Shown here: positions 17,427 through 52,481 of the stretch, one piece after another
How the letters are laid out: each line of letters begins with the position of its first letter
Position numbering within the stretch: position 1 is the stretch's first letter
NCBI RefSeq assembly: GCF_000023325.1
Contig: NC_012785.1
Span: 434,001-498,000, forward strand
From: Kosmotoga olearia TBF 19.5.1
GTDB taxonomy: Bacteria > Thermotogota > Thermotogae > Petrotogales > Kosmotogaceae
Direction of reading: 5' to 3'
DNA length: 64,000 nucleotides
Translations under genes and position numbers: made by a program
The notes under the pieces: generated by a model
Told to the model about the DNA's origin: nothing
What the model saw: only the letters and a program-made list of their open reading frames with translations
The model's database searches: none

Positions 17427-18989
17427 TTACATCTTAGCGGCAAGATTTCCGGAAGAGAAAGGTTTTTCGAATATCAATGAAACCTTCTTTTTTGAAATTT
17501 TCTCGGCTATTTTCCTGAAATGATAACCTGATATTGCAAGCGCCACGACCAGTGGAAAATGCCTTCTTTTTTTGAAGAGGCTCCATATGAGTAATTTCCA
17601 GTACTCAAACCTTTCTTTACCAAATATCCCTATCACCACAAGCGACCTTAAAAAGGCTTTGATTTCTATGAAAGTTATTTTTTTCAATCTAAAAGTATTG
17701 GGGAATTTATAGACAGACAAGAATTTTCTTAACCGTCTATAGTAATTTACGGGAGAATAAAGTTGTTTCATAAGCCTTTGATAACCGGAGATCAGGGTTT
17801 TTATATTCATTCTGGGAATAAAATTTATGGAAATCTCCACGTTATTTTCAACAAACTCACTGATCAATCTGCCTTCATTACGCATCCGCTCGTAAAGCTT
17901 GCTTCCACGAGGAGCATTCAGCATGCCAACCATGGCCGTTACTATACCCGTTCGTTGAATGAAACTGAATTGACGCTTGAATATAGAAGGCGTATCATGG
18001 TCAAACCCTATGATGAACCCCCCCTGTACTTCAAGACCTGAAGAATGTAATTTCTCTACGGATTTCTCCAGATTATGTTTGATATTCTGATATTTGTTTG
18101 TTTCCTTAAGACTCTCCTTATCCGGAGTTTCTATACCAACAAAAACCCTGTTAAATCCCGCCCGGGTCATCAAGTTTACTAGTTCATCGTCATCCGCAAG
18201 ATCTATGGATACTTCCGTGTAGAATGTGAAAGGGTAGTTATGCGCTTTTTGCCATTCGATAATAGCTGGTAAAACTTTCCGTTTGAGGTCAAATCTTTTC
18301 CCGATGAAGTTATCGTCCACAAAAAAAACAGATCTTCTCCATCCCAAATCATAGAGGGTTTGCAATTCTTGAATAATCTGTTCTGTACTTTTCGATCTTG
18401 GAACATGGCCATTAAGTGCACCTATCTCACAAAACTCACAGTCGAATGGACAGCCCCTGGAATACTGTATCCCCATCGAGTAATACCACTTGAGATGTAA
18501 AAGATCCCATCTGGGAACAGGTGCTTTTGTTATATCAGGAAAATCCGGGCTTGCGTAATATCTCTTCAATTTGCCATTTTCAATATCTTCTACGAGTTCT
18601 GGCATGATCTCTTCAGCTTCTCCTAAAACGAAATGATCTGCATTCGGAAAATGATCGGGTTCCATTGTGAATAGCGGTCCACCTGCAATAACCGGAACAT
18701 TCAATTCGTTGCATCGCCGTATGACATCTTTGACAGATTCACGTTGTACAGCCATAGCGCTTATAAAAACGTAATCACTGTTTCTAACATCCTTTTCTTT
18801 CAACCTCTCACAGTTCATATCGACCAACTTTATATTCCATTCATCTGGAAGATAAGAAGCGATCGTCAGCAATCCCAATGGAGGTAATGCAGCCCTTTTA
18901 GAAGCAAACTTCAGAGCGTGCTTGAATCCCCAGAAGGTGTCCGGATATTCTGGATAGACCATTAGTATGTTTTTCAAAAGCGACACCAC
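17427..18989 (-). CDS. B12-binding radical SAM protein with DUF4070-like tail
   Basis: 520 residues, GTG start at 18989 (the next GTG codon is equally possible). The N-terminal 150 residues form a cobalamin-binding-type Rossmann domain (LLTIASYLPDEWNIKLVDMN, then FISAMAVQ and AGGPLFT), although the His of DxHxxG is not obvious. The radical SAM core begins with YSRGCPFDCEFCEI, the CxxxCxxC cluster motif, followed by VFFVDDNFIG and RVFVGIETPD. The C-terminal region matches the DUF4070 type of hopanoid- or lipid-modifying enzymes. Such proteins methylate or rearrange lipid, peptide or cofactor substrates; the product cannot be stated. The cobamide genes later in the window would supply its cofactor if it binds B12. 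Confidence 0.8.
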   Translation of the reverse strand: MVSLLKNILMVYPEYPDTFWGFKHALKFASKRAALPPLGLLTIASYLPDEWNIKLVDMNCERLKEKDVRNSDYVFISAMAVQRESVKDVIRRCNELNVPVIAGGPLFTMEPDHFPNADHFVLGEAEEIMPELVEDIENGKLKRYYASPDFPDITKAPVPRWDLLHLKWYYSMGIQYSRGCPFDCEFCEIGALNGHVPRSKSTEQIIQELQTLYDLGWRRSVFFVDDNFIGKRFDLKRKVLPAIIEWQKAHNYPFTFYTEVSIDLADDDELVNLMTRAGFNRVFVGIETPDKESLKETNKYQNIKHNLEKSVEKLHSSGLEVQGGFIIGFDHDTPSIFKRQFSFIQRTGIVTAMVGMLNAPRGSKLYERMRNEGRLISEFVENNVEISINFIPRMNIKTLISGYQRLMKQLYSPVNYYRRLRKFLSVYKFPNTFRLKKITFIEIKAFLRSLVVIGIFGKERFEYWKLLIWSLFKKRRHFPLVVALAISGYHFRKIAEKISKKKVSLIFEKPFSSGNLAAKM

Positions 18990-21110: not shown

Positions 21111-21116
21111 ATTTCT

Positions 21117-21193
21117 TTGGGCGATGGGGTCCGCCCTAATTGCCAAAAGGCTGATGACTCCTATCTCTATGAGGTAGGAGTTTTTATTTTTTT
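21117..21193 (+). ncRNA. Fluoride riboswitch (crcB motif) with terminator expression platform
   Basis: GGGCGATGGGGTCCGCCC (21119-21136) followed by TAATTGCC and GGCTGATGACTCCTAT matches the fluoride aptamer almost base for base with the Thermotoga petrophila example as I remember it. GGGGTC pairs with GACTCC (one G-U), as in the known fold, although the bases differ from T. petrophila (GAGGCC/GGCCTC), so the pairing covaries. The 3' strand overlaps ACTCCTA (21157-21163), which can instead pair with TAGGAGT (21175-21181) to make a terminator followed by TTTTTATTTTTTT. Fluoride binding should free the downstream genes: a genetic ON switch. Confidence 0.92.
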
Positions 21194-41542: not shown

Positions 41543-42067
41543 ATGAGTATATCCACAGGTGGAGGAGATAAAGGTGAAACCAGCCTCTGGTCTGGCGAAA
41601 GGGTATCTAAAGATGATTTACGTGTTGAAGCATACGGAACGATAGATGAATTGAATTCACATATCGGTGAAGCCAGGCATTACTGTAAATCAAAAGAAAC
41701 CAAGGAACTTCTTTTAAGAATTCAAAATGACCTTTTCAAAGTGGCGGGGCAACTGGCTTCTAAAGGTAAATTATTCATCGAACCAATAACTGAAACCGAT
41801 GTTCAATGGCTAACAGAAAAAGTGCACCACTATGAAAAAATCATCAAATTAAAAGGTTTCGTTATCTCGGGAACGACAATTCAATCTGCAAAATTAGATA
41901 TATGCCGAACAGTAGCAAGAAGAGCAGAAAGAAGAATTGTCAGTCTGTGTAAGACTGAAGAGATCGCCAATGAACTTTTGAAATATATGAACAGATTATC
42001 GGATTTCCTATTCATTTTGGCTCGTTTTGAGGAGCACCTTGAAGGAAAACTTACATACAAAAGGTGA
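41543..42067 (+). CDS. PduO-type ATP:cob(I)alamin adenosyltransferase
   Basis: 174 residues, ATG 41543 behind AAAGGAGGAATACCT. The N-terminal TGGGDKGETSLWSGERV is the ATP-binding loop of the PduO family (usually TRTGDxGxT), followed by VEAYGTIDELNSHIG. The helix with TVARRAERRIVSL carries the Arg residues of the active site, and YMNRLSDFLFILARF is the C-terminal signature. The enzyme transfers adenosyl from ATP to reduced corrinoid, making coenzyme B12. It stands alone here, some 7 kb before the cobT-cobU-cobS operon that uses adenosylcobinamide, so the two are functionally linked. No cobalamin riboswitch was seen upstream. Confidence 0.93.
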   Translation: MSISTGGGDKGETSLWSGERVSKDDLRVEAYGTIDELNSHIGEARHYCKSKETKELLLRIQNDLFKVAGQLASKGKLFIEPITETDVQWLTEKVHHYEKIIKLKGFVISGTTIQSAKLDICRTVARRAERRIVSLCKTEEIANELLKYMNRLSDFLFILARFEEHLEGKLTYKR

Positions 42068-45180: not shown

Positions 45181-45807
45181 GTGGTGTTTCCGAAAAAATG
45201 GATATGTGCGATTATACTGATTCTTCTTTTGCTATCACCCCAAAGTTTTGCTCTGGATGATACTGTTACCAAACAACACTACGTCTTTGGTGGGGATCAT
45301 GATTATCCTCCATACGAATTTATAGATGAAAACGGCAATCCCGCAGGTTTCAATATTGATTTGCTTGGAGCTATTGCTGAAGTTATGGGTATGGATATTG
45401 AGATACGGCTTGGTCCCTGGAACGAAGTAAGAACAGCTCTCGAAAGAGGGGAACTAGACGGCCTTACAGGAATGTATTATTCTGAACAGAGAGACAAGCT
45501 GGTTGATTTCTCTACAGGATTTCTCATTGTTCATACAACGGTATTTGTTCGTAAAGATTATAATGGAATAACCTCAGAGGAAGACCTGGCAGGCAAGGAA
45601 ATAATCGTTCCGTATGGAGATATCATGCATGACTATTTACTCGAAAAAAAGATCACTGACAAAATCATCACTGTCGAATCACCTGCCCAGGCTTTGCGCC
45701 TTCTCGCTTCAGGAAAACACGATTGCGCTCTTTTGGGGAATCTTCAAGGATTTTATCTTGCAAAAAAACTAAAACTAGATAACATAAAGGCGATTAAATC
45801 CGTCTTA
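45181..45807 (+). pseudogene. 5' part of a PBP-PAS-GAF-GGDEF-HD-GYP receptor gene, cut by an insertion sequence
   Basis: GTG 45181 opens a signal peptide (ICAIILILLLLSPQSFA) and a periplasmic amino-acid-binding-type domain: YVFGGDHDYPPYEFIDENG, GFNIDLLGAIAEVMGM and GLTGMYYSEQRDKLVDFS. After AIKSVL the frame runs into the insertion at 45808 and stops three bases later. The downstream piece at 46878 resumes with the same codons (SVLFTQEYCFATKEG), so the two were one gene of about 953 codons. A truncated binding protein could still be exported but would no longer be linked to the output domains. Confidence 0.9.
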
Positions 45808-46877
45808 TAGGGTGTCTCAAAAATCAGTAACAGCCAATAATATCAGCCACCTTTCTGTGAGGACGGCTGTTCAAGATATTGAACATAACACAAAGATTGT
45901 ATGCCAATATGGCCAAACCCAATACCGCATCATAATTCCTGTTTCTCACATACCAAATGTATTCCAGATTGAAATATTCTTGTAGAATGTTAATCGTTCT
46001 CTCTATCTCCCAACGGTTTTTATACTTCTCCGCATATATTTGCCTCAATTGAATGCCCAGCCAACGAGCCTGACACTGTTTTTCCAGTGATACACCTTTC
46101 CTTTTGTTTGTGTCTATTACTGGTATCATGCTACTACAATCGAATATATAACGGTATATCTGTTGCGAATCATATGCGCTGTCTGCGAGGAAATACTTAT
46201 ATCCCTGGCCAGAATCTATTTGTGCCTTTGCCACCGTCGAATCGTGTACAGCTGCTGGCGTTGTCATCCAATCTTGAATCAATAGGTTCTGTGCATCCAA
46301 ACTCATATGTACCTTTCTTCCGTATTCCCAGCCTTTTGTCGTCTTTGTCCAACTGGATTGGGGGTCTTTGTATTTCCCTGTCCTTCTTCGTCTTTGTGCT
46401 GTATGGGTTTTACAAGTCTTGGTCACGAAAGGAATCCACCACCAACTCAATCCTTTCAAGTCCTTCTATATCCAAAAAGAGGTTTACAACATCTTTGTTT
46501 ATCCTGTGAAGAGGCAATTCTCTTACTCTCCTGGATATAGTCTGGAATGGTGGTATGTTTTTCAAGTCCAAGAGTTCCATGTATTTGGGATTCTTTTCTA
46601 AAAAGTTCTTTGCCCCACGATATGAGACATCGCATAGCTTCAATAAAATGGAAAGTTTCAAGATGCTCTTGTCAGAATAAGCCTTTCTTCTACCTCTGCC
46701 TTGTTTGTTAACGAAGTTAGAAGGCAAAAGCTTGTCTAACTGCTCAATAATCTTTACAATATCGCTTTTTGTGAGTTCTTGTGGTACCATTTATTTGGGC
46801 CTCCTTTCTTGTTTTGGGCTATTTCAATGGTACCACCATTGGAACTTGGGAGGCCCGCTTTTTTTCGTGACACCCTA
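45808..46877 (-). mobile_element. Insertion sequence, 1,070 bp, IS4/IS5-type DDE element
   Basis: Both ends carry TAGGGTGTC as inverted repeats, with weaker matching continuing to about 16 bases. The flanks TCCGTCTTA at 45799-45807 and 46878-46886 are a 9-bp target duplication. Removing the element and one copy restores an uninterrupted frame in the host gene, so the boundaries are exact. The element carries one transposase in two overlapping frames on the minus strand. Confidence 0.95.
45824..46790 (-). CDS. IS transposase in two overlapping frames (frameshifted)
   Basis: The first frame (46790-46410) starts with ATG behind AAAGGAGG and holds the helical N-terminal region (KLSILLKLCDVSYRGAKNFL), ending just after the first catalytic Asp in ELVVDSF. 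The second frame (46459-45824) contains the rest: KTHTAQRRRRTGKYKDPQSS, a second Asp in YFLADSAYDSQ, and the Glu in KNRWEIERT with the R-x-x-E-R spacing of IS4/IS5-type enzymes. Joining them needs a +1 (or -2) shift near the TTTC at about 46425. This could be programmed frameshifting, known in several IS families, or an inactivating mutation. Without an intact sister copy I cannot tell which. Confidence 0.85.
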
Positions 46878-49121
46878 TCCGTCTTATTCACTCAAGAATA
46901 TTGTTTTGCTACTAAAGAAGGAAACGATCAGCTTTTAAGTAGCCTCAACGAAGGGCTGGCTATAATCAAAGAGACAGGTAAATACAAAGAGATCTATGAA
47001 AATTGGTTTGGGACGTTGTCAGCACAACATCTTATAATCAAAAATTTAACAAAGTACGGATCGATAATCTTGTTGATTTTAACTGTTGGATTTTTGCTTG
47101 CCTTGAGCTGGTCGAGAGTTTTAAAGATAAGAGTAGAAGAAAAAACAAAAGAATTACGAAAAGAACTGCTCGAAAGAATGATTACTGAAGAAAAACTCCG
47201 CGTTAGTGAAGAGCGATACCGCAAGCTTTTCGAGAGTATGCTCGATGGTTTTATTCTCCTTAAACCCGTGGCAGATAAAGATGGTAATATAAACAATTTC
47301 AAGATCATCGAAGCAAATACCTCTTTTTTGAAAGCAGTAGGCAAGAAGAAAGAAGAAGTTGTGGGGAAAATGCTCTGGGACATATTTCCAACGGTTTACA
47401 AATCCCACATAAAAGTCTATGAAAAAGTTATAGAAACAGGAAGACCAACACATTTTGAAATCCATTCAGATGAAACAAACAAAACATTTGAGATAGTCGG
47501 ATTCACTCCGCAGACTGGTTATTTTGCTGCAATCGTAAGAGATATAACCCAAAGAAAGCAGGCTGAAAAAGCCCTGAAAGATAATCTGGAAAAAATCAGG
47601 AAACTACATGAAATAGCGTTAAAAATGGAAAAGAGTAAATCTGAAGAAGAAGTATATCACTTAATTGTCGAAGCAGCTAAAAAGATACTTGAGTTCGACA
47701 TTTACAGTCTCGACATAGTTGAAGGAAATAAATTCGTGGTTAAAGCAATATCTGAAAAAGTTGCAAGTCCGGAAATCATGGAGGCTCCCCTAAATGAGGG
47801 TATAGCCGGAAAAACTTTCCGTACAGGCAAAACCATCGTGGTAAAAGATATCGCTAATGAACCGGAAGCGAAACCCCGGAGTAAAGAATACCGTTCAGCT
47901 ATAAGCATACCAATAGGCAATATAGGTGTTTTCCAGACAATCTCAACGAAGAGGAACGCTTTCAGCAAAGAAGATGTTGAACTTGCGGAACTACTCATTT
48001 TCCATGCCACAGAAGCAATTGAACGAATTCGCTCAGAGGCAAAGATAAAATATCTCATCTTTCACGATCACCTGACAGGGGTTTACAATCGAGCATTCTT
48101 CGAAGAGGAGTTAAAACGCTTTGACGCTGAATCCCATCTTCCCCTTAGCATAATCATGGGAGATGTAAACGGCCTTAAACTCGTAAACGACGCTTTTGGA
48201 CATACTGAGGGAGATCGTTTGTTAAAAACCGTCGCCACATCAATAATCTCCTCTTGCAGGCCACAAGACATTGTAGCTCGATGGGGCGGAGATGAATTTA
48301 TAATCTTATTGCCGAGGGCCGGTTATATGCTCGCCGAAGGAATATTGAAACGAATCAAGATGAATCTGGAAAAATCTGACGAGGGTTCATATATCCCTAT
48401 TAGCGTAGCTTTTGGAATTGCGACTAAAGAAAATGCCAACCAAAATATTCAAGAAATTCTGAAAAAAGTCGAAGAGCAAATGTATAAAAACAAACTTTTG
48501 AAAAGCATGAGCACCAGAAATTCAATAATAACTTCCCTTGAAAAAATGTTACTCGAAAAGAGCAATGAAACCGAAGAGCACGCAAGGCGCATGAGAAAAA
48601 TAGCCTATGAATTCGGAAAGTATATCAATCTCACGGACAGTGAGATCAACGATTTAGTTTTGCTGGCTGCACTTCACGATATTGGAAAGATATCCGTACC
48701 TGAATCAATACTGAAGAAACCTGGTCCACTGACAGTCGAAGAATGGGAAAAAATAAAAGAGCATCCGGAAACAGGTTATCGTATAGCAATAAACTCGCCA
48801 GACCTTGTTACCATAGCAGATGGTATCCTGTACCACCACGAATGGTGGAATGGGAGCGGTTATCCACGAGGGCTTAAAGAGGAAGAAATACCGTTTATAG
48901 CGAGAGTAATTTCAATAATCGATGCGTACGATGTTATGACTTCTGGACGCCCTTATAAGAAACGGCTGAGCAAAGATAAAGCCCTCGAAGAAATAAAGAA
49001 ATCTTCGGGTATCCAGTTTGATCCCAGGCTTGCAAGGTTATTCATGGAGTTCATGCAAAGTTTGGAAGACTCTGAAAAATCTGATAGAAATTCTGATAAA
49101 GATAAAAGTTATCATGAGTAA
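46878..49121 (+). pseudogene. 3' part of the receptor gene: binding-domain end, PAS, GAF, GGDEF and HD-GYP
   Basis: Continues the 45181 gene after the insertion. Parts in order: the end of the binding domain (YKEIYENWFG), a membrane helix (YGSIILLILTVGFLLALSW), a coiled linker, PAS (YRKLFESMLDGFILLKP), GAF (about IRKLHEIALKMEK to FHATEAIERI), GGDEF with the active-site sequence WGGDEF, and an HD-GYP domain (AALHDIGKISVPE, YHHEWWNGSGYP). Synthesis and breakdown of cyclic di-GMP would both be possible. An open frame reaches upstream into the insertion (TTG 46779), so a fused, still translated product lacking the sensor is conceivable. The cobT gene begins 11 bases after its stop. Confidence 0.9.
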
Positions 49122-49132
49122 GGAGGTAAAAA

Positions 49133-50155
49133 ATGGCAAAAAAAGATCTTGAAAACAAAATAAAAGAAAGACTGAATAGCCTGACAAAACCGAAAGGAAG
49201 CCTTGGCTTCCTCGAGGATATAGCATTAAAGATGGGAAAAATACAGGGAAAAGTCCTTCCAAACCTACCGGAGAAAAAAGCGGTTTTTGTCTTCGCAGGA
49301 GACCACGGTGTTACTGAAGAAGGAGTATCCGCATATCCAAAAGAAGTAACGGCACAGATGGTGTTGAACTTCCTGAATGGTGGAGCAGCGATAAATGTTT
49401 TTTCGCGGCATGTTGGAAGTGAAGTTTATGTTATTGACGCAGGGGTTGATTATGATTTTCCTGCACATGAAAGGCTTTTGAATAAGAAAGTTGGAAAAGG
49501 CACCAAAAATTTTTCTAAAGAACCTGCGATGACCAGGGAAGAAGCAGAAAAATCGATAGAATATGGAAAAGAAATAGCACGCTTCGCAAAAGAGAAAGGA
49601 TTTGAACTCGTTGCAGTGGGAGATATGGGAATAGGAAACACAACAACCGCAACCACTATTGCCATAGCATTGGGACATAACCTTTCAGAACTGATAGACA
49701 TTGGAACGGTTATAACCGGGCAACAATTGGAGAAGAAAGAGGCAGTGGTAAGACAAGCTATTTCAATTCACGAACCATTTATGGATCCCATTGATGTCTT
49801 ATCGAAAGTAGGCAGCTATTGTCTGGGAGAAATGGCGGGATTTATACTCGAGTGCGCACAATTAAATATTCCTGTAGTTATAGATGGGTTCCCAACCACA
49901 GCGGCTGCCCTCATTGCAGCGCAATTGAATCCTGAAGTCCTTGACTGTATGTTTGCCGGGCATTGTTCAAAGGTTAAGGGCCATAGAGTATTGCTCGATG
50001 CTCTCAATCTACGCCCTATCCTGGATCTTGATATGCGTCTCGGTGAAGGAACAGGGGCTGTGCTTTCTTTCTCGATCATAGAAGCAGCCATTAAGATGAT
50101 CAATGAAATGGCAACCTTTGATGATGCGAACGTTTCAAAGGGGAAAGAAAAATGA
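49133..50155 (+). CDS. cobT: Nicotinate-nucleotide--dimethylbenzimidazole phosphoribosyltransferase
   Basis: 340 residues, ATG 49133 after GGAGGTAAAAA. CobT motifs: LTKPKGSLGFLEDIALKMG at the start, VFAGDHGVTEEGVSAYP, VGDMGIGNTTTATTIA, PVVIDGFPTTAAALIA and LGEGTGAVLSFSIIEAA, whose Glu is the catalytic base. The enzyme makes alpha-ribazole phosphate, the activated lower ligand of cobamides, from a base and nicotinate mononucleotide. It opens the four-gene cobamide operon and overlaps cobU by four bases. Confidence 0.96.
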   Translation: MAKKDLENKIKERLNSLTKPKGSLGFLEDIALKMGKIQGKVLPNLPEKKAVFVFAGDHGVTEEGVSAYPKEVTAQMVLNFLNGGAAINVFSRHVGSEVYVIDAGVDYDFPAHERLLNKKVGKGTKNFSKEPAMTREEAEKSIEYGKEIARFAKEKGFELVAVGDMGIGNTTTATTIAIALGHNLSELIDIGTVITGQQLEKKEAVVRQAISIHEPFMDPIDVLSKVGSYCLGEMAGFILECAQLNIPVVIDGFPTTAAALIAAQLNPEVLDCMFAGHCSKVKGHRVLLDALNLRPILDLDMRLGEGTGAVLSFSIIEAAIKMINEMATFDDANVSKGKEK

Positions 50156-50640
50156 TCTTAATTACAGGAGGAGAACGCTCAGGAAAAAGCCGCCTTGCAC
50201 TGGAACTGGCGTTAAAAAAAGGAGAAAAAAGGGCATTTATCGCAACAGCTGAAGCCATAGATGAGGAAATGAGTTCGCGTATAGCAAAACACAAAGAAGA
50301 GCGGGGGAACCTGTTCGTTACATACGAAGAACCGCTGGATATACACGAGATCCTGAAAAAAACAGGGGATTACGACGTTGTTGTGGTGGAATGTATGACA
50401 ACGTGGTTGGGGAATCTTTTTCACTACGGTCGAAATATCGATGAGATGGTTGAAAAGTTTATCGGCAGTATCAATGGAAATGAGATAATCGTAAGCAATG
50501 AAATAGGCATGGGGGTGATACCGGAAAACCCGATCACCCGGACTTTTGTGGAAGCGCTCGGAAGGCTAAACGCAAGAATCGCGCAGATAGCAGATGAGGT
50601 TTACTTTGTAGTTACAGGGATAGGTGTAAAGATAAAATGA
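50152..50640 (+). CDS. cobU: Adenosylcobinamide kinase / guanylyltransferase
   Basis: 162 residues; ATG 50152 overlaps the cobT stop (ATGA). The P-loop is ITGGERSGKSRLALELA, the guanylylated His is in RIAKHKEERG, and VVVVECMTTWLGNL and IVSNEIGMGVIPENPITR are family signatures. The protein phosphorylates adenosylcobinamide and then converts it to the GDP form for CobS. The length is slightly under the usual 180. It overlaps the following gene by four bases, so translation is coupled through the operon. Confidence 0.95.
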   Translation: MILITGGERSGKSRLALELALKKGEKRAFIATAEAIDEEMSSRIAKHKEERGNLFVTYEEPLDIHEILKKTGDYDVVVVECMTTWLGNLFHYGRNIDEMVEKFIGSINGNEIIVSNEIGMGVIPENPITRTFVEALGRLNARIAQIADEVYFVVTGIGVKIK

Positions 50641-51236
50641 TAGGTTCCACATCATGGGTAATTCCCGGAACTTATTACGAAAACGCTTTACTCCTCGAAG
50701 GGCTCGTAGACTTCGTGGAGCTGTTGGTTTATACGTGGGATGAAGACACAAAGACACTTCTTTTTAATGAAATGGATAAACTCTTACAGCTTGATTTGTC
50801 TTATACAGTTCATCTCCCGATGGATCGGCTGGACAACGTGATACGCGCCTACAATTTTTTTGAAGAGGCACGGTTCCCTGTCATAAACTATGTTCTCCAC
50901 CCTATCAAAGGGTGGAGAAGAACATTGGGAGAAAAAGTCGCCCTGGAAAACCTCAAAGAACTCATTGAACCTCATAATAGAATGGTTTTTGATGTCGGGC
51001 ACCATTTTCTTGGGAAAAAATTCCCTGCTCATCTGAAGGAAGCGATTGTAGAAATACACGCAATGGGAGTAATCGATGGAAGAGACCATCTCCCACTCGA
51101 TCGCGAAACGGCAGCGTTCATCAAAGGCTTCATGGGAGATCTTATTACCGAAAATGTTCTTATAAACTTTGAGGTTTTCGATCTTGAAGATTTGAAAAAC
51201 TCTCTCAAAGTATGGAGTGATACCTTTGTGGAATGA
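50637..51236 (+). CDS. TIM-barrel protein resembling cobamide-remodelling phosphodiesterase CbiR
   Basis: 199 residues, start overlapping the cobU stop (ATGA). It is an AP-endonuclease-2/xylose-isomerase-type barrel with STSWVIPGTYYENALLLEG, FVELLVYTW, SYTVHLPMD, NYVLHPI, MVFDVGHHFL and EIHAMGVIDGRDHLPLD. His, Asp and Glu residues at these strand ends fit a metal site. CbiR, described in Akkermansia and Rhodobacter, is a barrel of this type that cleaves the phosphoribosyl link of imported cobamides to give cobinamide phosphate for rebuilding with a new lower ligand. The position between cobU and cobS strongly supports that role; sequence recognition alone would not be enough. Confidence 0.7.
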   Translation: MIGSTSWVIPGTYYENALLLEGLVDFVELLVYTWDEDTKTLLFNEMDKLLQLDLSYTVHLPMDRLDNVIRAYNFFEEARFPVINYVLHPIKGWRRTLGEKVALENLKELIEPHNRMVFDVGHHFLGKKFPAHLKEAIVEIHAMGVIDGRDHLPLDRETAAFIKGFMGDLITENVLINFEVFDLEDLKNSLKVWSDTFVE

Positions 51237-51237
51237 C

Positions 51238-51921
51238 ATGAAACTTGCAATAGCATTCCTGAGCAGAGTACCAGTCCCTCTAAAACAAAATAAAGGGAAC
51301 CTAAAAAAAATCTGTGCGTATTTCACATTCGTAGGATATCTGGCCGGCGTATTCTATTTTTCTATGAAGCTTATAAGCGAAAACTTTTTATGGACGCTGT
51401 TATCAGTTGCACTTGGATTTTACCTTTTTGATCTATTTCACTTTGATGGTCTCTTAGATACGCTAGACGGGTTCTTCTATCAGGGAACGAAGGAGCGGCG
51501 TTTTGAAATAATGTCAAAAGGAGATATCGGCCCCTTCGCTTTTTTCTATGCCGCATTGTATATAGTGGCTTATCTTTACGCTTTTTTGCATGTAGATCCA
51601 ATTGATCTCATTTATGTGGCAGTTCTCGGAAGATTCTCCATGAATATTCTTTTGCACTTCGGAAAACCAGCAAAAAACACGGGGCTTGGAAAGTTATTAC
51701 ATCCCTATGAAAAAAAGCATACCCTTATAAGCCTTGTTTTTACCATTCCTCTTGTATACTTTCCTCTAAACTACATCATTTCGTTATCTATCGCGCTATT
51801 GCTGGGAAGCTCTATGCATTTCATTACAAATAGAAAAATCGAAGGGTATACCGGCGATGTGCTAGGGGCAACTTGCATGTTTTCCCAGCTTTCAATCATG
51901 GTAGCACTTTCGCTAATTTAA
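51238..51921 (+). CDS. cobS: Adenosylcobinamide-GDP ribazoletransferase (cobalamin synthase)
   Basis: 227 residues from ATG 51238. An in-frame TTG at 51226 with GGAG eight bases upstream is the alternative start. Family motifs: IAFLSRVPVP at the N-terminus, FHFDGLLDTLDGFF with the metal-binding Asp residues, MSKGDIGPFAFF and GYTGDVLGATCM. Six or so membrane helices are expected. The enzyme joins alpha-ribazole phosphate (from CobT) to adenosyl-GDP-cobinamide (from CobU) at the membrane. It is the last gene of the operon; a CobC-type phosphatase is not present. Confidence 0.95.
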   Translation: MKLAIAFLSRVPVPLKQNKGNLKKICAYFTFVGYLAGVFYFSMKLISENFLWTLLSVALGFYLFDLFHFDGLLDTLDGFFYQGTKERRFEIMSKGDIGPFAFFYAALYIVAYLYAFLHVDPIDLIYVAVLGRFSMNILLHFGKPAKNTGLGKLLHPYEKKHTLISLVFTIPLVYFPLNYIISLSIALLLGSSMHFITNRKIEGYTGDVLGATCMFSQLSIMVALSLI

Positions 51922-52010: not shown

Positions 52011-52069
52011 ATAGGGGGGCAATAATGTTGATGATAGGGGGGGATAATGTTGATCCAAAAGACCGTTAG
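52011..52069 (+). promoter_or_regulatory. Duplicated ribosome-site/start segment with overlapping leader ORF
   Basis: GATAGGGGGG followed by ATAATGTTGAT occurs twice in a row before the Rrf2 gene, the first copy with two extra bases. The first ATG (52025) opens a 14-codon frame ending at TAG 52067-52069, overlapping the Rrf2 start in another frame. This could reduce Rrf2 translation. Confidence 0.5.
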
Positions 52070-52481
52070 GTATGCTCTGAGGATATTGGTTAAGCTGTCC
52101 ATCGAGAATAGAGCCTTGAACTCAAAAGAAATCTCTCTATCCGAAAATCTCGATCACGGTTTTACATTGAAAATTCTCTACTATCTCAAGAAAGCTGGAT
52201 TGGTTCGAGCTATTCGCGGTCGAAAAGGTGGATACGCTCTTGCAAAGAATCCCGAAGATATAACCATAACAAAGATATTCGAGGCTATACCAGACGTTGA
52301 AGAAAGGCTCATCGACTGTGATACCAGCTGCAAATTTCACAAAGAATGCTACGTGAAGGATTTCTGGGAATTGACAAACCATATCATAGGGTACACCTTT
52401 TCAAATGTATCCATCGCCAATATAATCAATAATAATTTCAAGGAAAAGATCAAGTTCCTGGAAGGGGAATTTCATCAATGA
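52047..52481 (+). CDS. Rrf2-family transcriptional regulator, probably Fe-S type
   Basis: 144 residues, ATG 52047 after GGGGGGATA. The winged-helix domain has YALRILVKLSIEN, SLSENLDHGFTLKILYYLKKAGLV and IRGRKGGYALAKNPEDITI, the classic Rrf2 recognition helix and wing. Three cysteines in CDTSCKFHKEC (about residues 91-101) match the cluster ligands of IscR/NsrR-type members that sense iron-sulfur status, nitric oxide or redox. Its own promoter region may be a target. The HhH gene follows with a stop-start overlap. Confidence 0.92.
   Translation: MLIQKTVRYALRILVKLSIENRALNSKEISLSENLDHGFTLKILYYLKKAGLVRAIRGRKGGYALAKNPEDITITKIFEAIPDVEERLIDCDTSCKFHKECYVKDFWELTNHIIGYTFSNVSIANIINNNFKEKIKFLEGEFHQ

Follow-up and report, generated by a model that had tools for sequence, protein, structure and literature searches.

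A probable compact CbiR gene in a lower-ligand assembly operon of Kosmotoga olearia

Introduction

What does a 199-residue barrel protein do when its gene lies between cobU and cobS in an operon that assembles the lower ligand of cobamides? We addressed this question in a 64,000-nucleotide stretch of Kosmotoga olearia TBF 19.5.1 (hereafter the window; positions 434001-498000 of NC_012785.1, the one contig of a genome with 2,302,126 bases). An earlier note on this DNA had described a CbiR-like gene overlapping head to tail with cobT, cobU and cobS, and a cell that imports cobamides, cuts off the wrong lower ligand and rebuilds them. Our analysis indicates that the barrel gene probably encodes a compact form of the cobamide-remodelling phosphodiesterase CbiR, a member of the apurinic/apyrimidinic (AP) endonuclease 2 superfamily. 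We assign a probability of roughly 84% to the reading that the operon serves cobamide salvage and remodelling, with import, a CbiR cut and rebuilding by CobU, CobT and CobS.

CbiR has been characterised in Akkermansia muciniphila, where, according to the main text of PMC7733943, Amuc_1679 cleaves the phosphoribosyl bond of adenosylcobalamin (AdoCbl) and methylcobalamin (MeCbl) to yield cobinamide phosphate and alpha-ribazole, needs anaerobic conditions and dithiothreitol, is inhibited by ethylenediaminetetraacetic acid, and is encoded in a locus that includes cobDQ and cbiB. The amidohydrolase CbiZ, as introduced in PMC7733943 and PMC6461909, likewise strips an unsuitable lower ligand, sharing the biological role of CbiR. 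A review table (PMC5282855) gives Kosmotoga olearia one 'No' and one 'Yes' beside Swithers et al. 2012, which, read from the row without its column heads, stand for no de novo synthesis and for cobinamide salvage. The CbiR family with its cob-gene context is already published and, on that reading of the table, cobinamide salvage is already listed for this organism. The main text of PMC7733943 contains 'kosmotoga' nowhere and 'thermotog' once, in a reference; its homologues are in Table S1, outside that scope, so absence of the K. olearia protein from print is not claimed. The operon itself is real and well explained: its barrel gene belongs to an already described family and sits where such genes are normally found.

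Gene content and family assignment

All four genes lie on the forward strand, in the order cobT (49133-50155), cobU (50152-50640), the barrel gene cbiR (50637-51236) and cobS (51217-51921 from a GTG start or 51238-51921 from an ATG start). CobT scored 425.5 bits with TIGR03160 (cut-off 319.3) and 433.6 bits with Pfam DBI_PRT, and was the single CobT match of a profile search of the whole genome. CobU reached 170.4 bits with NF004469 (cut-off 161) and 176.2 bits with Pfam CobU, and CobS reached 146.1 bits with Pfam CobS (cut-off 23.2) while staying below the cut-off of TIGR00317 (97.2 vs 110 bits). By these family matches, the products are identified as nicotinate-nucleotide:dimethylbenzimidazole phosphoribosyltransferase, which activates the lower ligand (CobT), adenosylcobinamide kinase/adenosylcobinamide-phosphate guanylyltransferase (CobU) and adenosylcobinamide-GDP ribazoletransferase (CobS), in agreement with the lower-ligand assembly operon described earlier. 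The claimed head-to-tail overlaps stood for two of the junctions, as cobT/cobU (50152-50155) and cobU/cbiR (ATGA, 50637-50640) share four nucleotides each. The third is uncertain because of the two candidate start codons, the GTG at 51217 giving a 20-nucleotide overlap of cobS with cbiR and the ATG at 51238 leaving the genes 1 nucleotide apart. A Shine-Dalgarno-like aaggaggt, which makes a good ribosome-binding site, precedes the cobT ATG at 49133.

The barrel protein matched the CbiR equivalog model of NCBIfam, NF041277, over residues 2-194 with 119.5 bits, above the curated cut-off of 105. No rival NCBIfam or Pfam family, endonuclease IV and sugar isomerase/epimerase families included, appeared at E ≤ 1 in a scan whose filters discard most matches above about E 0.1. 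All ten members of our alignment A1 matched NF041277 as well. Among 103 Thermotogota genomes the model was matched over its cut-off in 27, and a protein of genome G056 lay just under it at 101.5 bits, within a normal cobT-cobU-cbiR-cobS cluster. The latter was the lowest score of any whole-protein, cob-adjacent relative in the phylum, and the remaining matches, CbiR pieces excluded, scored 68.5 bits or less, which leaves a clear gap between the two sets.

A tree separated 31 CbiR rows (the window protein and 30 relatives) from 11 further Thermotogota barrel proteins with a support of 98/99, and the distinction between CbiR and other barrels required one change of label. The 11 outgroup proteins are weak NF041277 matches from Thermotogota that were not classified further, and they include several long branches, which meet one another. 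Closer kinship to endonuclease IV or to sugar isomerases, which the earlier note had named as the outcome that would speak against its proposal, was not seen in this partial test, in which no such model matched at E ≤ 1 and the clade stood apart from the 11 barrel proteins, endonuclease IV lying outside the tree. The nearest relative (64% identity) comes from a metagenome-assembled genome (MAG) titled Thermotoga sp., followed by other Thermotogota, Synergistota and Caldisericota records, and this spread suggests that cbiR has been exchanged between lineages. A search for plasmid-borne relatives gave no match.

Conserved residues and predicted fold

Eight residues (H59, H88, E104, D119, H122, H141, H151 and E179) are invariant in all 37 CbiR sequences. 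They are putative metal ligands, by analogy with the enzyme described in the main text of PMC7733943 rather than by a residue-level superposition. An AlphaFold2 model built from 10 sequences (mean predicted local distance difference test score, pLDDT, 94.1; predicted template modelling score, pTM, 0.90) contains eight barrel strands at residues 2-5, 26-30, 55-59, 82-87, 101-104, 116-119, 137-142 and 175-178. In this model H59, H88, E104, D119, H141 and E179 sit where strands 3 to 8 end or just past that point, with H141 inside strand 7, and H122 and H151 fall in the stretches after strands 6 and 7. Just a three-residue helical turn remains between strands 4 and 5, and no helix is predicted between strands 5 and 6 (residues 105-115).

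The protein is thus predicted to fold as a xylose-isomerase-like/AP endonuclease 2 type (beta/alpha)8 barrel. Its best VIA-align match was the D-tagatose 3-epimerase-like 3wqo (271 residues; Z 18.4, 2.6 Å, 191 of the 199 residues), and endonuclease IV chains aligned too (Z 15.8 and 15.4). This fold is common to the whole superfamily and therefore does not separate CbiR from endonuclease IV, isomerases or epimerases; nor does it carry weight that CbiR was not named among the matches listed by Foldseek and VIA. PDB sequences gave no match to the barrel protein up to E = 10, and a small CbiR could suit structure work.

A compact group of CbiR proteins

The window protein falls 50 residues short of the 249 positions in the NF041277 model and skips model positions 110-138. 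Its length had been taken as a possible minimal form of the family, and this claim holds in part. The 199 residues are not the minimum, as 11 of the 36 relatives have 195-198 residues (some of them near-copies), and 18 of the 37 sequences have 205 or fewer, two of these (L018 and L039) solely through a late start choice. Judged by residue spacing, 32 of the 37 sequences do form a compact group, of which the window protein is not the smallest member. In these 32 the spacing from E104 to D119 is exactly 14, against 23-25 in the other five (L005, L006, L017, L022 and L024), which the tree also sets apart. The spacing from H88 to E104 offers no clean marker, being 15 in the window protein, 15-26 across the compact group and 25 in the longer group. 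The minimal-form claim thus comes down to this: within a published family, the window protein belongs to a common compact subfamily, whose clade includes records labelled Thermotogota, Caldisericota and Synergistota.

The wider spacing indicates that the longer five probably carry a helix absent from the compact form. It is conceivable, and we put it forward tentatively as a doubtful idea, that the barrel of the compact subfamily has lost the helix following strand 5 as well as, in the branch of the window protein, most of the one following strand 4, which could open the substrate pocket, shift the range of lower ligands cut, or let the protein work docked to CobU or CobS. Docking is proposed because cbiR usually lies between the cobU and cobS genes.

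Corrinoid economy of the genome

Profile searches of the genome found no CbiC and no CbiB, and one tetrapyrrole methylase (TP-methylase), which we take from its sequence to be RsmI. De novo corrin synthesis was rejected on these counts, the other corrin-ring families not having been searched one by one; the earlier remark that the operon itself lacks corrin-ring genes was confirmed. CbiZ was matched in none of the 103 Thermotogota genomes, that of the window included, and CbiZ-type remodelling was rejected as well. CbiZ cuts another bond than CbiR, and its cut obliges the cell to rebuild the linker, for which CbiB is needed. Since no CbiB was found and a CbiR cut keeps the aminopropanol phosphate linker, this cell would be able to repair a CbiR cut and not a CbiZ-type cut. 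The A. muciniphila locus differs in this respect, as it holds cobDQ and cbiB.

The proposed corrinoid import agrees with the position of the genome's one detected cobalamin riboswitch, which lies directly before a btuF-btuC-btuD-like set. A PduO-type corrinoid adenosyltransferase is encoded in the window as a separate accessory gene (41543-42067, forward strand; PF01923 187.1 bits; TIGR00636 185.8 bits, cut-off 108.45), and a second, of the CobA/BtuR type, elsewhere in the genome. Three AdoCbl-type mutases were found, namely methylmalonyl-CoA mutase (with MeaB), lysine 5,6-aminomutase and ornithine 4,5-aminomutase. Taken together, the missing CbiC and CbiB, the importer, the adenosyltransferases and the mutases fit a cell that imports corrinoids and needs an AdoCbl-type coenzyme. 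The genome also encodes B12-binding radical SAM proteins, one of them inside the window (17427-18989, reverse strand), whose best NCBIfam models (PhpK, lipid-type and MJ_1487-type) scored far below their cut-offs.

Gene neighbourhood and distribution

We compared gene context at 36 further loci that encode a CbiR relative, mostly with flanks of about 1.5 kb. They include three identical pairs from two collections (L031/L033, L028/L035 and L018/L039; Thermotogota genomes vs MAGs titled Thermotoga, Mesoaciditoga and Pseudothermotoga) and three further near-copy pairs. The arrangement of cob genes around cbiR is not due to chance, because cobU adjoins cbiR in 33 of the 36 loci and cobS does so in 35. 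The four-nucleotide cobU/cbiR overlap of the window recurs in 10 of those 33. A cobT gene is present in 23 loci, and two others (L037 and L038) hold short cobT-like pieces.

Over the 103 Thermotogota genomes, CbiR over the cut-off and CobT occur together in 21, CbiR alone in six, CobT alone in three (one being G056) and neither in 73; the corresponding counts for CbiR and CbiB are 21 with both, six with CbiR only (the window genome among them), nine with CbiB only and 67 with neither. CbiR over the cut-off is thus found in 21 of the 24 CobT genomes, with G056 just under as a 22nd, and together with the missing CbiZ this suggests that lower-ligand assembly in Thermotogota is usually paired with CbiR-type remodelling, which helps to predict the imported B12 forms that such bacteria can use. 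Besides G056, two genomes, G001 of the same family and G046 of the same order as K. olearia, have CobT and no CbiR over the cut-off. Both carry cobT-cobU-cobS with cobU directly before cobS, together with a CobC-like phosphatase that scored under the CobC cut-off. The existence of these clusters shows that cbiR is an optional add-on to an otherwise working cobT-cobU-cobS set.

In four of the five longer-type CbiR clusters a conserved protein of 220-240 residues precedes cobU, in the place of cobT (L066:1436-2149, L067:1395-2132, and, on the reverse strand, L017:2703-3374 and L022:2590-3297), and a fifth copy lies downstream of its cluster (L034:5982-6626). Its likeness to AIR synthase (PF00586) is weak, with a best E of 0.0019 and matches in two of the five members; it may function as an alpha-ribazole kinase of the CblS kind. 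In L066 and L017 it is accompanied by a small, putatively CblT-like membrane protein with no profile match.

Proposed pathway and alternatives

Swithers et al. 2012, as cited in PMC5282855 and PMC6211235, reportedly described a cobinamide salvage cluster in Thermotogales. The operon is like that cluster in its kind of organism and in its pathway. For the window protein, the reaction, its products and direction and the choice of ligand are modelled on the family and on the published A. muciniphila enzyme, with which it shares a score over the NF041277 cut-off, a xylose-isomerase-like barrel (as predicted), a conserved His/Asp/Glu set and a gene position beside cobT, cobU and cobS. The cell would make no corrin ring and would import cobinamide and complete cobamides through the BtuFCD-like transporter. 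The 199-residue CbiR would hydrolyse the phosphoribosyl bond in cobamides whose lower ligand does not suit the cell, releasing adenosylcobinamide phosphate and an alpha-riboside, CobU would convert the former to adenosylcobinamide-GDP (AdoCbi-GDP), CobT would activate the preferred base, and CobS would join the two. The resulting AdoCbl-type coenzyme would then serve methylmalonyl-CoA mutase, lysine 5,6-aminomutase and ornithine 4,5-aminomutase. Cobinamide phosphate is the substrate of the guanylyltransferase step of CobU, so within the operon CbiR would cut, CobU reactivate, CobT activate the base and CobS join.

Several observations weigh against this pathway or the assignment behind it. The window protein differs from Amuc_1679 in having 199 residues vs the 249 positions of the model and no match to PF01261, the Pfam family reported for the latter, and its shortness and the skipped positions mean that its activity could differ. 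The characterised A. muciniphila enzyme is missing from the tree, and of 14 control genomes 11 gave NF041277 matches, all of them below the cut-off. Locus L024 holds no cob gene within its 3.6 kb, a CobT match is missing from six of the 27 CbiR genomes, and in the GTDB family of K. olearia the CbiR protein was matched in one of 17 genomes, that of the window. With the B12-specific models, BtuF, BtuC and BtuD all fell short of the curated cut-offs, and the substrate of the transporter is for this reason assigned from the riboswitch. Finally, an Rfam scan near the operon found no family at gathering score.

The barrel protein might act on the nucleotide loop without remodelling imported cobamides, as a phosphodiesterase that clears or proof-reads dead-end intermediates (e.g., cobamide 5'-phosphate or AdoCbi-GDP) or mainly frees alpha-riboside for reuse. 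Such a role would suit a gene so regularly flanked by cobU and cobS, whose products make and use AdoCbi-GDP, and the AIR-synthase-like gene before cobU in four of the five longer-type clusters, by a weak match a possible alpha-ribazole kinase, suggests alpha-riboside recycling. However, complete AdoCbl and MeCbl are substrates of the CbiR that has been characterised (main text of PMC7733943), and two Thermotogota genomes keep cobT-cobU-cobS without cbiR, which makes this role unlikely. We consider it very improbable that the protein is a degenerate CbiR, inactive through the loss of barrel parts in the compact form. The missing 50 residues and the predicted lack of a helix at residues 105-115 would agree with decay, but the eight metal-type residues are invariant throughout, 32 of 37 sequences agree in their E104-D119 spacing, and compact proteins make up a widespread clade with records labelled as three phyla. 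An isomerase, epimerase or endonuclease IV-like AP endonuclease lying among cob genes by accident is hardly credible: the superfamily fold and its closest solved structures, D-tagatose 3-epimerase-like proteins with endonuclease IV also aligning, are what such a protein would show, yet no endonuclease IV or isomerase model matched at E ≤ 1, the clade is separate from the other barrel proteins of the phylum, and cobU or cobS adjoins the gene in 35 of the 36 loci.

Features flanking the operon and related clusters

A riboswitch over the operon was considered and rejected, the sole Rfam match in the window being of the fluoride type (21111-21170, forward strand; 50.1 bits, gathering score 34) and the cobalamin riboswitch of the genome lying at btuF. 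A scan for promoters and terminators returned no more sites than in shuffled sequence. Downstream of cobS lies an Rrf2-type regulator (52047-52481), with no CobC-like gene directly after cobS. Upstream, 11 nucleotides separate cobT from a PAS/GGDEF signalling gene that runs in the same direction (46779-49121). An IS5-family element with terminal inverted repeats (45792-46893; transposase open reading frames 45824-46459 and 46410-46790, reverse strand) appears to split this substrate-binding/PAS/GGDEF gene into two parts (45181-45810 and 46779-49121).

Among the other clusters, cobU-cobS-CobC-like sets without cbiR were seen in L063 (102-1955, reverse strand) and L064 (3241-5169). One MAG, bacterium GBS-1, contains two different cobT-cobU-cbiR-cobS clusters (L040 and L041), the result of a genuine duplication or else of a mixed bin. 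In another cbiR cluster (L013; G066:C12:31496-32496) the assembly has cobT split over two frames. Genomes G078, G079 and G080 encode two CobT proteins each, the one adjacent to cbiR being the lower-scoring of the pair.

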